Below are positions 45,142 through 52,719 of a stretch of DNA of 64,000 nt, one piece after another. The notes beneath the pieces were generated by a model that had not been told where the DNA came from, ran no database searches, and was given only the letters and a program-made list of their open reading frames with translations. The DNA lies in NCBI RefSeq assembly GCF_902506415.1, contig NZ_LR733275.1:1837795-1901794 (forward strand), written 5' to 3'. This DNA comes from Massilia sp. 9I. Lineage in GTDB: Bacteria > Pseudomonadota > Gammaproteobacteria > Burkholderiales > Burkholderiaceae_D. The position numbers and the translations under genes are program-made. The first letter of the stretch is position 1. Each line of letters opens with the position of its first letter.

Positions 45142-49167
<4,026 letters not shown>

Positions 49168-49185: not shown

Positions 49186-49213
49186 AAAAGCGCCTCCTCG
49201 GAGGCGCTTTTTT
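49186..49213 (+). terminator. Terminator after purL
   Basis: AAAAGCGCCTC and GAGGCGCTTTT form a strong stem with a short loop, flanked by A and T runs, so it can also end the convergent minus-strand gene. Confidence 0.92.
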
Positions 49214-49228
49214 CATGTCTGCAGAGGC

Positions 49229-49624
49229 TCAGCTGCCCCAGATCGGCTCGTCCGGGGTGCCGTTGCCGCCAGGCGTACCCGGGGTCTTGCCGGCGCCCGC
49301 ACCGGCGCCGCCGAGTGTGCCGCCGCCGGCACCGCCGCTGTCATTGGCACGGCCGCCGCCACCGCCAGTGCCGGTATCGCCACCGCCACCGCCGCCGCCC
49401 GTTTCCGGCCGGCCAGCGCTGCCGCGGCTGGTCTGCGCGGCGCCCGCGGGCATGGCGTTGGCATCAGGCGGGGAGGGCAGGAAGTCGCCCGCCTGGCTGT
49501 CGCCGCCATGGGCGCCGCCCGTGTAGTGGCCGGCGTTCGACTGTACCGCGCCCGCGCCCGCTTGCTGGGGCGGCACCTGGTATTGCCACAGCCCGCCTTG
49601 CTTGTTCGGTTTTTCCTTGTCCAT
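49229..49624 (-). CDS. Glycine-rich protein of unknown function, paralogue 1
   Basis: A 131-residue hydrophilic, low-complexity protein (Gly, Ala, Pro, Asn, Ser; no Cys, no signal peptide, no membrane helix). It starts MDKEKPNKQGG and carries a core from W13 to T35: W-x-YQVPP, six variable residues, GAGA, two residues, SNAGHYT (written approximately; see the paralogue). After it come a PP-[DE]-x-N patch and long glycine runs, ending PDEPIWGS. The ATG at 49624 has AGGAGG seven bases before it; the frame start at 49684 lies in the leader. It is probably intrinsically disordered. I do not recognise a named family. Confidence 0.75.
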   Translation of the reverse strand: MDKEKPNKQGGLWQYQVPPQQAGAGAVQSNAGHYTGGAHGGDSQAGDFLPSPPDANAMPAGAAQTSRGSAGRPETGGGGGGGDTGTGGGGGRANDSGGAGGGTLGGAGAGAGKTPGTPGGNGTPDEPIWGS

Positions 49625-49646
49625 GCTGTCCTCCTGTTGGAACGAT

Positions 49647-49675
49647 CGCCAGATAGATGGTAGTCCCATCTGGCG
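49647..49675 (-). promoter_or_regulatory. Inverted repeat in the 5' leader of glycine-rich paralogue 1
   Basis: CGCCAGAT (49647-49654) and ATCTGGCG (49668-49675) are exact inverses. An alternative inner pair AGATGG/CCATCT (49655-49660, 49666-49671) also fits, so two exclusive hairpins are possible in the mRNA leader. The paralogue leader keeps only part of this. Confidence 0.45.
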
Positions 49676-49682
49676 GGCGTTC

Positions 49683-49713
49683 AATAGGACCAGCGAGCAG
49701 GCGTGCGTAGGAG
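49683..49713 (-). promoter_or_regulatory. Shared promoter-like element upstream of glycine-rich paralogue 1
   Basis: On the minus strand CTCCTACGC (49705-49713) is followed after exactly 16 bp by CCTATT (49683-49688), 59 bp from the start codon. The same two boxes, spacer and distance recur at 50253-50283. This is not a sigma-70 pattern; an alternative sigma factor is inferred. Confidence 0.6.
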
Positions 49714-49744
49714 AGGGCGCAGGGCTGCTCGAGCCAAGGGAGGA

Positions 49745-50194
49745 TCAGGACCGGTCGGTACCGGCCGAGCCGCTCATGTTGCCGTCCGCATTGCTCGCCA
49801 TGTCCGGCGGGCCGCCGGCCGCGCCGCCATTGGCCTGGGCTTCGCGGCTGGCCTGGATGCCGCCCAGGGTAGCGCCGGTGGGGTCGGTCGCGCTGCCGGC
49901 GCCGCTTAGTGGCTGTCCTGGCGCATTGACGTTGCTTTCCGGCGGTGCGCTGACGATCCCGCCGCCATGTCCCGCCGCATTGGCTGTGTAGTGTCCCGCA
50001 TTCGATTCGGCGGCGCCGGCCCCGCTACCTGGCGGCGGCACCTGGTAGCGCCAAACGGGCTCCGCCGACTGGTCGCTGCCTGCGCCGGAGCCCATCGGTG
50101 CGCCGGCTGCGCCCGGCAAGGACATGTCTTCGCCCGGACCTTCGCGACCGCCGTCGAGTGCTTTTCCGTCCTGATTCCGTTTATCGGTATTCAT
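49745..50194 (-). CDS. Glycine-rich protein of unknown function, paralogue 2
   Basis: A 149-residue hydrophilic, low-complexity protein with the same core as paralogue 1, W48 to T70: W-R-YQVPP, a short variable segment, GAGA, AE, SNAGHYT. Over these 23 positions the two proteins align without gaps and agree at 17. A following PPESNVNAPG patch also matches. The N-terminus is charged (MNTDKRNQDGKALDGG). No Cys, signal or membrane helix. An AGGAG ribosome site precedes the ATG. The pair is tandem on the minus strand, each gene with its own promoter-like element, so they are probably co-regulated rather than co-transcribed. Function unknown. Confidence 0.75.
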   Translation of the reverse strand: MNTDKRNQDGKALDGGREGPGEDMSLPGAAGAPMGSGAGSDQSAEPVWRYQVPPPGSGAGAAESNAGHYTANAAGHGGGIVSAPPESNVNAPGQPLSGAGSATDPTGATLGGIQASREAQANGGAAGGPPDMASNADGNMSGSAGTDRS

Positions 50195-50252
50195 GATGGT
50201 CTCCTGTGTAGTTGGCCTTGTAGACGATCTTAGTCATCCGGGCAGGAGATTG

Positions 50253-50283
50253 AATAGGCGCACGTTCCGCGCCGGCGTAGGAG
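50253..50283 (-). promoter_or_regulatory. Shared promoter-like element upstream of glycine-rich paralogue 2
   Basis: CTCCTACGC (50275-50283), a 16-bp spacer and CCTATT (50253-50258) on the minus strand, 59 bp before the ATG at 50194, exactly as for paralogue 1. The spacer sequences differ, so the boxes appear to be under selection. Confidence 0.6.
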
Positions 50284-50429
50284 GGGTCTGAACCCGCAGC
50301 TGCATTCAGGAAAAATTTCTATGAGAATCAAGCGTTTGCAAGGATGAGTTCACGCAAGGCTTGATGTCGGCCTCAGCGCATGATGAAGCTAAGGCGGCCT
50401 GGGCCGTCTCAACTTCCACGGAGGAACAC

Positions 50430-51002
50430 ATGATTGTCCGTTTCCGCTCGTCGCAACTTGCCGTTCGACTCATCCTCGCCGCGGGCCTTGTGCTCGGCAT
50501 CGGCATCAGTCCAGCCGTGTCGGCGCAGGAAATCATGCGAGCGCCTGCGGCGGTCGCCTGCGACAACCTGCTGCTGGCCGAGGGCGCCACTCCGGAAGCG
50601 CTGCTGGCCGACTGCACCTGCCCGCCGAAGGGCTGCGTGCGCACCCAGGGCTACTGGGGCAACAAGCCGGGCGTGGTCTGGCCCAGAGGATATAGCCGCA
50701 ACGCGAGCTTCTTCCGCAGTGGGCTCACCTGGCAGCAGGTGCTCGACAGCCCGGTACGGGGCGACGCCTACTTCATCCTGGCCCACCAGTACATCGCGGC
50801 GGTGCTGAATATCGGCGCCGGCGCCTCGGCGCCGAACAGCCTGCGCTCGATCGTGCTCGCGTCCGGCGCCTGGTTCGCCAGCGCCGTGCCCGGCACCTGC
50901 GTCAAGGGCGCCTGCCAGCTGCAGCGTTCCTGGGGCAGCGTGCTCGACGAGTACAACAACGGCGACTATCCGGGAGCGCCGAAGCACTGCGACGAGGACT
51001 GA
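50430..51002 (+). CDS. Secreted TQGYW-motif protein, unknown function
   Basis: A 190-residue protein with a signal peptide (RLILAAGLVLGIGISPAVSA). The mature part has CTCPPKGCVRTQGYWGNKPG, the TQGYW-x-N-x-P motif found in many secreted bacterial proteins, followed by VVWP, and an ILAHQYIAAVLNIGAGAS helix that recurs in that family. Several cysteines (CDN, DCTCPPKGC, TCVKGAC, HCDED) could form disulfides. GGAGG precedes the ATG at 50430; the frame extends upstream to 50361 without a signal-compatible start. The role is unknown; cell-surface or matrix association is plausible. Confidence 0.8.
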   Translation: MIVRFRSSQLAVRLILAAGLVLGIGISPAVSAQEIMRAPAAVACDNLLLAEGATPEALLADCTCPPKGCVRTQGYWGNKPGVVWPRGYSRNASFFRSGLTWQQVLDSPVRGDAYFILAHQYIAAVLNIGAGASAPNSLRSIVLASGAWFASAVPGTCVKGACQLQRSWGSVLDEYNNGDYPGAPKHCDED

Positions 51003-51067: not shown

Positions 51068-51859
51068 TTACTGGATCTTGGCCTTCTTGACCAGGCTTTC
51101 GCGGTACTGCGCCAGCTGACGCTGCTGCAGCTGTTCCGCGACTTGCTGCTTGACTTCGTCCAGGGCCGGGATCTTGGCTGCGCGCACGTCTTCCAGCTTG
51201 ATGACGTGGAAACCGTACTGGCTCTTCACCGGGGTGTCGGTGATGGCGCCTTTTTGCAGCGAGACCATGGCTTTCGAGAACTCAGGCACGTAGTTGGCCG
51301 GGCTTGCCCAGTCCAGGTCGCCGCCGTTGGCCGCCGAACCGTCTTTCGACTGGGCCTTGGCCAGCTCGTCGAACTTGGCGCCGCCCTTCAGCTTGGTGAT
51401 GATGGCCTTGGCTTCGTCTTCGGTCGCAACCAGGATGTGGCGTGCGTGGTATTCCTTGTCGCCAACCTGAGCCTTGTAGCGGTCGTACTCGGCCTTGATC
51501 TCGGCGTCCTTGATCGGGTTCTTCTTGACGTAGTCGGCCAGCATCGCATTGATGATGATGCTCTGGCGGGCGTTGTCGATGGCTGCCTTGACGTCGGCGC
51601 GGCCGCCGATGCCTGCCTTGTCGGCTTCCTGGATCAGGACTTCGCGGCCGATCAGGTCTTTCTTGATTGCGTCACGCAGCTGCGGCGAATCGGTGGCGCG
51701 GCCTTGCGCGACCACTTGCTTGACCAGCTGGTCAACCTTTGCCGCCGGGATGGGCTTGCCATTGACGGTGGCGACGTTCTGCGCGAATGCAGGCGCGGCG
51801 AGCATCGCGGTCACGGCCAGGCTGATTGCCAAAGACAGGCGGGCTTGCTTCAAAATCAT
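51068..51859 (-). CDS. Periplasmic parvulin-type peptidyl-prolyl isomerase, paralogue B
   Basis: A 263-residue secreted PPIase. The signal peptide (LSLAISLAVTAMLAAPAFA) is followed by a SurA/PrsA-like helical N-terminal domain and one parvulin (rotamase) domain, EYHARHILVATEDEAKAIIT to SQYGFHVIKLEDVR, then a helical tail rich in Gln. It helps fold exported proteins. It is a tandem paralogue of the gene at 51940-52719, matching along the full length; the mature N-termini NVATVNGKPIPAAKVDQLVK and NLAVVNGKAIPTSRVDEAVK show this. It lies last in the cluster. Confidence 0.93.
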   Translation of the reverse strand: MILKQARLSLAISLAVTAMLAAPAFAQNVATVNGKPIPAAKVDQLVKQVVAQGRATDSPQLRDAIKKDLIGREVLIQEADKAGIGGRADVKAAIDNARQSIIINAMLADYVKKNPIKDAEIKAEYDRYKAQVGDKEYHARHILVATEDEAKAIITKLKGGAKFDELAKAQSKDGSAANGGDLDWASPANYVPEFSKAMVSLQKGAITDTPVKSQYGFHVIKLEDVRAAKIPALDEVKQQVAEQLQQRQLAQYRESLVKKAKIQ

Positions 51860-51939: not shown

Positions 51940-52719
51940 TTACTGCACCTTTGCCTTTTTGACCATTTGCTCACGGTAGGCCGCGAGCTTTTGCTGGGCG
52001 ATGGCATCGGCGATCTGCGGCTTGACTTCTTCCAGCGCCGGCAGCTTGGCCGCGCGGGTGTCGTCCAGCTTGATGACGTGGAAGCCGTTGGCGGTCTTCA
52101 CCGGCTTCTCGGTGACGGCGCCTTTCTGCAGGCCGGTTAGACCGGCGGCGAATTCAGGGCCGAAGGAGGCCGGGACTGCCCAGTCCAGGTCGCCGCCGGT
52201 GTTGGCGGTGCCGGTGTCCTTCGACTGCTTGGCCAGGTCTTCGAACTTGGCGCCGCCCTTGATCTTGGCGATCACGGCGTTCGCTTCGGCTTCGGTATCC
52301 AGCAGGATGTGGCGCACGTGGTATTCCTTGTCGCCGGTCTGGGCCTTGAACTTGTCGTACTCGGCCTTGATTTCAGCGTCGGTCACCGGGTTCTTGGTGA
52401 TGTAGTCACGGGCCAGCTGGTTGACGACGATGGCCTGGCGGGCGTTGTCGAGCGCCTGCTTGACTTCCGGCTTCTTGTCGTAGCCCTGCTTGATGGCTTC
52501 CTGCATCAGCACTTCGCGGGCGATCATTTCCTGCTTGATCGCCATGCGCAGCTGCGGCGAGTCCTCGCCCTGGCCGGCAGCGACCAGCTGCTTGACGGCT
52601 TCGTCAACGCGCGAGGTCGGGATGGCTTTGCCGTTCACGACGGCGAGGTTCTGCGCAAAGGCAGGTGCTGCGGCAACGGCGATCAGAGCTAACAGCAGGC
52701 GTGCTGGCTTAAAAGTCAT
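51940..52719 (-). CDS. Periplasmic parvulin-type peptidyl-prolyl isomerase, paralogue A
   Basis: A 259-residue secreted PPIase with a signal peptide (LLLALIAVAAAPAFA), SurA-like N-terminal helices and a parvulin domain EYHVRHILLDTEAEANAVIA to TANGFHVIKLDDTR. A near-copy of the downstream gene at 51068-51859, 80 bp away. Tandem duplication within the betaproteobacterial bolA-yciB-msrB neighbourhood suggests divergence in substrate range. It has its own ribosome site (GGAATTCC-type leader with AGGAAT). Confidence 0.93.
   Translation of the reverse strand: MTFKPARLLLALIAVAAAPAFAQNLAVVNGKAIPTSRVDEAVKQLVAAGQGEDSPQLRMAIKQEMIAREVLMQEAIKQGYDKKPEVKQALDNARQAIVVNQLARDYITKNPVTDAEIKAEYDKFKAQTGDKEYHVRHILLDTEAEANAVIAKIKGGAKFEDLAKQSKDTGTANTGGDLDWAVPASFGPEFAAGLTGLQKGAVTEKPVKTANGFHVIKLDDTRAAKLPALEEVKPQIADAIAQQKLAAYREQMVKKAKVQ

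Follow-up and report, generated by a model that had tools for sequence, protein, structure and literature searches.

Two adjacent glycine-rich genes and their products

We examined two adjacent minus-strand genes, A and B, in a 64,000-nucleotide stretch of the genome of the soil bacterium Massilia sp. 9I (contig NZ_LR733275.1, positions 1,837,795 to 1,901,794; hereafter the window), together with an upstream element of fixed spacing that precedes low-complexity and stress genes. Gene A (49745-50194, minus strand) encodes a cysteine-free, glycine-rich and probably disordered protein of 149 amino acids (aa) that belongs to what we term the PESNV family. Gene B (49229-49624, minus strand; 131 aa) is its tandem paralogue, called here from an ATG; its longest open reading frame (ORF) extends to 49684, from a TTG. 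An AGGAG-type ribosome-binding site lies ahead of the ATG in both genes, and likewise in their orthologues.

The initial annotation, made from the letters of the window and a list of ORFs, had placed two low-complexity ORFs at these coordinates and described a shared core, a second PP-[DE]-x-N patch and flanks rich in glycine, alanine and asparagine, and each of these features proved to be real. The core is WRYQVPPPGSGAGAAESNAGHYT in A (residues 48-70, 49985-50053) and WQYQVPPQQAGAGAVQSNAGHYT in B (residues 13-35, 49520-49588), and the second patch is SAPPESNVNAPGQPLSGAGSA in A (residues 82-102, 49889-49951) and SPPDANAMPAGAAQTSRGSA in B (residues 51-70, 49415-49474); all four lie on the minus strand, with coordinates converted by hand. 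The two cores align without gaps over 23 residues with 17 identities, exactly as first reported, whereas 300 composition-preserving shuffles of B never exceeded 12 (mean 9.2). Scored with BLOSUM62 and without gaps, the two cores reach 111, compared with a maximum of 83 in 1000 shuffles.

Six sequences of A gave a ratio of nonsynonymous to synonymous substitution (dN/dS, taken as mean dN over mean dS) of 0.20, and seven of B gave 0.27, so selection acts on the proteins and not on the DNA alone. A and B evolve under purifying selection, which bears out the earlier suggestion of a selected protein motif. Among 40 columns of the core region, the residue is kept while codons vary at 18 in A and 13 in B. 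We considered that A and B might be spurious ORFs, and the dN/dS values together with the conserved ribosome-binding sites rule this out. A mobile-element origin was also considered; a tblastn search with A against 72,556 plasmid records and 50,697 phage records found no match.

Glycine makes up 21% of A and 31% of B, and residues of the set FILMVWYC 10-12%, with no cysteine; A has one tryptophan and B two. The grand average of hydropathy is -0.66 for A and -0.81 for B. Hydrophilins are defined by glycine above 6%, a hydrophilicity index above 1 and induction by water deficit; A and B pass the glycine limit, as do 42 of 42 family members counted. AlphaFold, run for gene A only on the single sequence without an alignment, returned a mean predicted local distance difference test score of 52.6 and a predicted template modelling score of 0.12, and FoldIndex-type scores are near 0 (-0.02 and -0.03 for A and B). 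By eye, neither protein shows a signal peptide or lipobox. We take these small proteins to be probably cytoplasmic and probably disordered.

Neither protein could be assigned to a named family, as had been anticipated. Pfam gave no match to PF10685 or any other entry for A at E ≤ 1, and for B only PdaC (E 0.3); NCBIfam gave zero matches for both, and no curated profile in either collection, including those of late embryogenesis abundant proteins and dehydrins, matched A or B. A profile search of the PDB returned a single weak match (E 0.098). The characterised family that could have overturned the initial annotation was thus not found.

A putative promoter element with fixed spacing

Comparison of the upstream regions of family genes across chromosomal positions revealed the element TCCTAC-N18-CC[TG]ATTG-N19-TANNAT, followed mostly by 28-36 nt to the ATG. 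Before gene A it occupies 50227-50282 on the minus strand, as TCCTAC (50277-50282), N18, CCTATTC (50252-50258), N19 and TAAGAT (50227-50232), ending 32 nt before the ATG with one mismatch to the full pattern. Before gene B it occupies 49657-49712, also on the minus strand, as TCCTAC (49707-49712), N18, CCTATTG (49682-49688), N19 and TACCAT (49657-49662), again 32 nt before the ATG and with no mismatch. These are the only two matches to the full pattern in the window, where 0.01 would be expected by chance, and the half-site pair is exact before both genes.

The half-sites, TCCTAC and CC[TG]ATTG, are direct repeats 23-24 bp apart, the second of which overlaps the -35 position. A weight matrix was built from 116 sites, after 18 of 134 were left out for having no start with a ribosome-binding site 24-42 nt away and with L059-L064 also set aside. 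It added a GTSCGAC block 4-10 nt upstream of TCCTAC, an A or G directly after TCCTAC, and a C before TANNAT in 75% of sites. A C at this last position favours sigma-S.

Both half-sites, with at most one mismatch, lie within 1 kb before the protein end in 43 of 45 family members (40 of them exact); L146, a non-member by eye, and L142_1, the second frame of a broken copy, had been set aside beforehand. We also varied the spacing of the half-site pair over 679 kb of sequence (40 family loci, the Gln-rich locus L151 and the window), most of it from loci chosen for family genes, and found 38 pairs at the natural spacing and none at each of 34 others.

The element in the host genome and the genus

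The 5.5-Mb host genome has 13 copies of the half-site pair TCCTACR-N16-KCCKATW and none of its reversed control. Twelve of the 13 sites precede small low-complexity proteins, which include A, B and two KGG proteins with PF10685 matches (sites 1987317 and 5048206). The others are a KGG-like 68-aa protein to which Pfam gave no score (site 2280237), a tandem pair of Gln-rich proteins (134 and 120 aa), a 225-aa protein whose gene diverges from the second KGG gene, proteins of 127 and 147 aa, and two small lipoprotein-like proteins with Ser/Thr/Gly tails (by eye).

The same association holds across the genus, where the low-complexity proteins behind these dispersed sites fall into several families unrelated in sequence. 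Sites with at most two mismatches were present in 61 of 62 same-genus genomes, for a total of 183 compared with 8 reversed-control matches; gene context was read for part of these. The loci fetched, some for the family gene and others by the pattern alone, contain 106 distinct sites with no more than one mismatch. Of these, 105 precede a small ORF of low hydrophobicity, 102 of them at 24-42 nt, and the remaining site precedes a Mn-catalase gene. By comparison, such a composition is seen in 30 of the 548 genes, including the family genes, that were called across the 40 family loci. The ORF downstream of each site was chosen by a simple ribosome-site score. The composition and site counts omit L059-L064, L222-L225, L240 and L284-L324, which are of other genera save L290-L293 of the same genus, and the composition count also omits L110, L142, L143_1 and L146.

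Two genomes carry the element before Mn-catalase genes (L199 and L200, the latter confirmed by Pfam). KGG genes were present in 31 of 31 genomes searched, and the exact pair precedes the KGG gene in 18 of 30 KGG loci fetched from the genus. The KGG and Mn-catalase genes link the element to known stress functions. The initial annotation, which had offered stress hydrophilins as one option, had overlooked the promoters and the regulon; that option is now favoured by a promoter held in common with KGG, CsbD, DUF883, Transgly_assoc and Mn-catalase genes.

Several arrangements recur around these sites. A KGG gene and a divergent low-complexity protein of 113-314 aa (mostly beginning MDANQRS) each have their own half-site pair in L243-L245, L247-L251, L265, L280 and L291. 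The sole same-genus genome without a site at two or fewer mismatches, G047, has a half-site pair before one KGG gene (L246). Small lipoprotein-like proteins with Ser/Thr/Gly-rich tails stand behind the element in L204, L206, L282 and L327, and the regulon may therefore also reach the envelope. A related element precedes recQ (identified by eye) in L279, L292, L328, L191 and L193; in most of these loci two TCCTA half-sites flank an inverted GTAGG and the start lies closer. This version may represent another branch of the regulon.

The element beyond the genus

Within the taxonomic family, 13 of 267 genomes of other genera have sites with at most one mismatch, compared with one control match in all 294 genomes. 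Eight of these 13 are in genus g12, and a KGG gene follows, at 71 nt, the single g12 site that was read (L240). The half-site pair is rich in three genomes of the family, G086 (8 sites), G088 (3) and G072 (3), and five others have none. Six of these 14 sites precede a stress-type gene; these are CsbD (L321), Transgly_assoc (L318), a KGG gene and a KGG-like gene, both identified by eye (L323 and L324), and a CsbD match that falls below the cut-off and a DUF883 gene starting 248 nt from its site (L313). One family genome, G092, had four control matches.

Outside the family, the pair gave 35 sites in 31 of 386 genomes of the order as against 66 reversed-control matches, and we therefore treated these sites as chance. 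This applies also to those before a catalase-like gene (L301) and a small membrane protein (L310).

Distribution of the PESNV family

Alignment of relatives identified the second patch, sAPPESNVxPxGxPQSSxGSA, as the family-wide motif, a role that the initial annotation, centred on the W-x-YQVPP core, had missed; the core is not the hallmark of the family. It belongs to a subgroup beside purL and is an elaboration within a single lineage. A search at the protein level across 62 same-genus genomes matched 22 at E ≤ 0.01, with many low-complexity matches; loci were fetched from these 22, and a regular expression for the core found it in 8 of them. A profile of the patch region (A4) is far more widely matched, in 51 of the 62 Massilia genomes at E ≤ 0.01. 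Three of these matches are weak (G001, G013 and G029, E 0.0036-0.0039), and one of the three (L146, in G001) did not look like a member by eye.

Among 294 genomes of the taxonomic family, A4 at E ≤ 0.001 matched 22, all in the same genus (1 of 44 genera). A profile of the core region (A2) matched 28 of 392 family genomes in 2 of 44 genera, the second through one weak match, and 3 of 399 genomes of the order; there was one match in g26 (L054, E 4e-4). A match in a Ruminococcus metagenome-assembled genome (L064) covers 20 residues only. Named relatives with the family are Massilia sp. IC2-477, M. agri, Massilia sp. BSC265, M. alkalitolerans and Massilia sp. MS-15. Restriction to one strain, which would have undone the first description, is thus not what we see, and the genes have homologues in dozens of genomes.

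Most matched genomes have one copy; ten genomes were seen to have either a purL-adjacent gene or the A/B core pair, and six of these ten have two copies in tandem. Two copies look broken: in G038 (L142) the gene runs over two frames, and in G030 (L143) a stop interrupts the match of the A copy. In the open-access literature, we found no paper describing the promoter or the family, as judged by title or abstract. PESNV is apparently an undescribed, fast-evolving family, found in our sequence searches so far only in Massilia.

Genomic surroundings

Gene B converges with the plus-strand gene at 45142-49167, which we take to be purL. Between them, the inverted repeat AAAAGCGCCTC-CGAG-GAGGCGCTTTT (49186-49211, not assigned to a strand), read directly from the sequence, is likely a two-way terminator of B and purL. 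On the other side, 51068-51859 and 51940-52719 (minus strand) encode tandem PpiC-type parvulin paralogues (by eye) that are about 61-62% identical and are kept with purL in eight relatives. Divergent from A, 50361-51002 (plus strand) encodes a 213-aa protein, probably exported by eye, with a CVRTQGYWGNKPGVVWP stretch. A counterpart with 66% identity occurs in G042, but tblastn at 1e-8 found none in the seven other purL loci.

Both purL and the ppiC pair adjoin a family gene in the window and in 8 of 40 relative loci (15 kb each), while in the remaining 32 the family gene lies at several different places. Because family genes occur at many locations, no operon holds the family together. An operon of A and B with purL or ppiC is also unlikely, given that purL is convergent, that each gene has its own element, and that 32 of the 40 relative loci have neither. 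No neighbour gene common to all locations was found in the 40 fetched loci; neighbour names are weak, because the quick gene caller sometimes took antisense ORFs in this GC-rich DNA.

Interpretation and alternatives

With KGG and CsbD members, the gene set reads as one of general stress, and A and B are thus most likely accumulated under stress. We consider it probable that they resemble hydrophilins and belong, with other disordered proteins, to a general-stress regulon, and that they would aid survival of drying or a similar stress. A stress-responsive activator, perhaps a response regulator of the NarL/FixJ type acting with RpoS holoenzyme, would switch on the whole gene set. We infer that the two half-sites form the factor site and that CTANNAT is a -10 box of the sigma-70/sigma-S type; if transcription starts 7 nt after this box, the activator would be bound at about -59 and -35, beside polymerase carrying sigma-70 or sigma-S. 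No regulator gene was recognised by eye near the Gln-rich pair (L151). Once accumulated, A and B may protect the cell during drying, osmotic shock or stationary phase by contacts of low specificity (a hydration shell, excluded volume and the shielding of folded proteins), to which the Trp/Tyr/His core may add a specific contact.

A number of observations weigh against this proposal. The hydrophilicity index (Kyte-Doolittle with sign reversed) is 0.66 for A and 0.81 for B, below the hydrophilin limit of 1, and exceeds 1 in only 17 of 42 family members. The conserved Trp/Tyr/His core seems to have more specificity than would be required of a bulk hydrophilin. The element is missing before the B copies in G060 and G003, and one of the 13 host sites precedes recQ (by eye). 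The exact pair stands before no more than 2 of the 4 KGG genes found in the host genome and is missing from 12 of the 30 fetched KGG loci. At sites with two mismatches, the downstream gene is often recQ or an unclear ORF (L157, L184, L191, L193, L209 and L214). In other genera, no stress gene was seen at four strict sites (L222-L225), 8 of the 14 pair sites in the three rich genomes named above are followed by other or unclear ORFs, and the DUF883 gene at L313 starts as far as 248 nt away.

The conserved core lends itself to another reading, in which A and B are condensate-forming or scaffold proteins whose core and PESNV patch act as stickers within disordered spacers, binding one partner or driving phase separation under stress. 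Motifs kept by selection inside diverging flanks, the core columns that keep their residue while codons vary, and the one or two tryptophans would all suit such a role; but most family members lack the core while keeping the promoter, and no linked partner gene was seen at locations that differ from one another, so that we regard this reading as unlikely. We see still less reason to take A and B for exported or surface matrix components, which the initial annotation had allowed. Their glycine-rich low complexity and the two lipoprotein-like members of the host regulon would be in keeping with it, yet beyond the lack of a signal peptide or lipobox, no secretion genes were recognised by eye in the window between 40000 and 60000, and we give the idea only a slim chance.

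Slimmer again is the chance that A and B are cargo or accessory proteins of Type VI secretion, an idea suggested by one group of loci (for example L109 and L119) in which the family gene is near genes that we presume, from sequence and without a profile scan, to be T6SS/VgrG/PAAR-like. Other groups lie beside purL and ppiC, a flgN-like gene or others, and it is the promoter and not the neighbourhood that they have in common. As to the element itself, its position over -35 would also fit a repressor, or it could be a repeat without a role in stress control. Its single spacing and its occurrence almost only before such genes at one or fewer mismatches speak against this, and the third conserved block, GTSCGAC, fits an activator better; we therefore think both readings improbable.

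Returning to A and B as members of a stress regulon, we would tentatively extend the proposal to an Oxalobacteraceae "disorder regulon", though we think this rather unlikely. Here, one activator and one rigid promoter code would govern a dozen or more unrelated, fast-evolving disordered proteins that build a protective gel or glass on drying, with A and B cross-linking through the Trp/Tyr/His core. New disordered genes would join the regulon lineage by lineage, with the protein altering behind a promoter that is kept.

Relation to known systems and significance

The KGG family (PF10685) includes YciG and YmdF of enterics and GsiB of Bacillus. Like A and B, its members are small, glycine-rich and linked to stress, and two host KGG genes have the element of A and B; unlike them, A and B have no KGG repeat or PF10685 match, are less hydrophilic and were found only in the host genus. 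The TCCTA half-sites near -35 resemble those of the NarL/FixJ regulators BvgA and RcsB (TTTCCTA and TTCCTA), whereas ours are direct repeats 23-24 bp apart; this likeness is a lead to a candidate class of regulator.

KGG proteins are reported to be RpoS-regulated in Salmonella (PMC7161692), and YciG is described as a hydrophilin (PMC7161692, PMC5437024). The small-protein set reported for Salmonella RpoS includes YciG (KGG) and YjbJ (CsbD) (PMC5437024), with KGG and CsbD proteins in one stress regulon, as here. In Massilia, however, the genes are marked by a fixed element of two half-sites, and the majority of the members in this genus are of low complexity and have no Pfam family. The Acinetobacter hydrophilins DtpA and DtpB are reported to be disordered, to be controlled together with catalase and under (p)ppGpp, and to promote drying tolerance (PMC12742793). 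The co-control with catalase described there is paralleled by the Mn-catalase genes with the element at L199 and L200, but the likeness to A and B is one of protein type, and A and B have an index below 1.

Disordered protective proteins diverge fast and are hard to find by sequence; here, a strict code in the putative promoters tags candidates for this class. The orphan low-complexity genes of an environmental bacterial group can thereby be listed from sequence as a testable set, which would offer a handle on a stress regulator and on how bacteria may recruit new disordered stress proteins.
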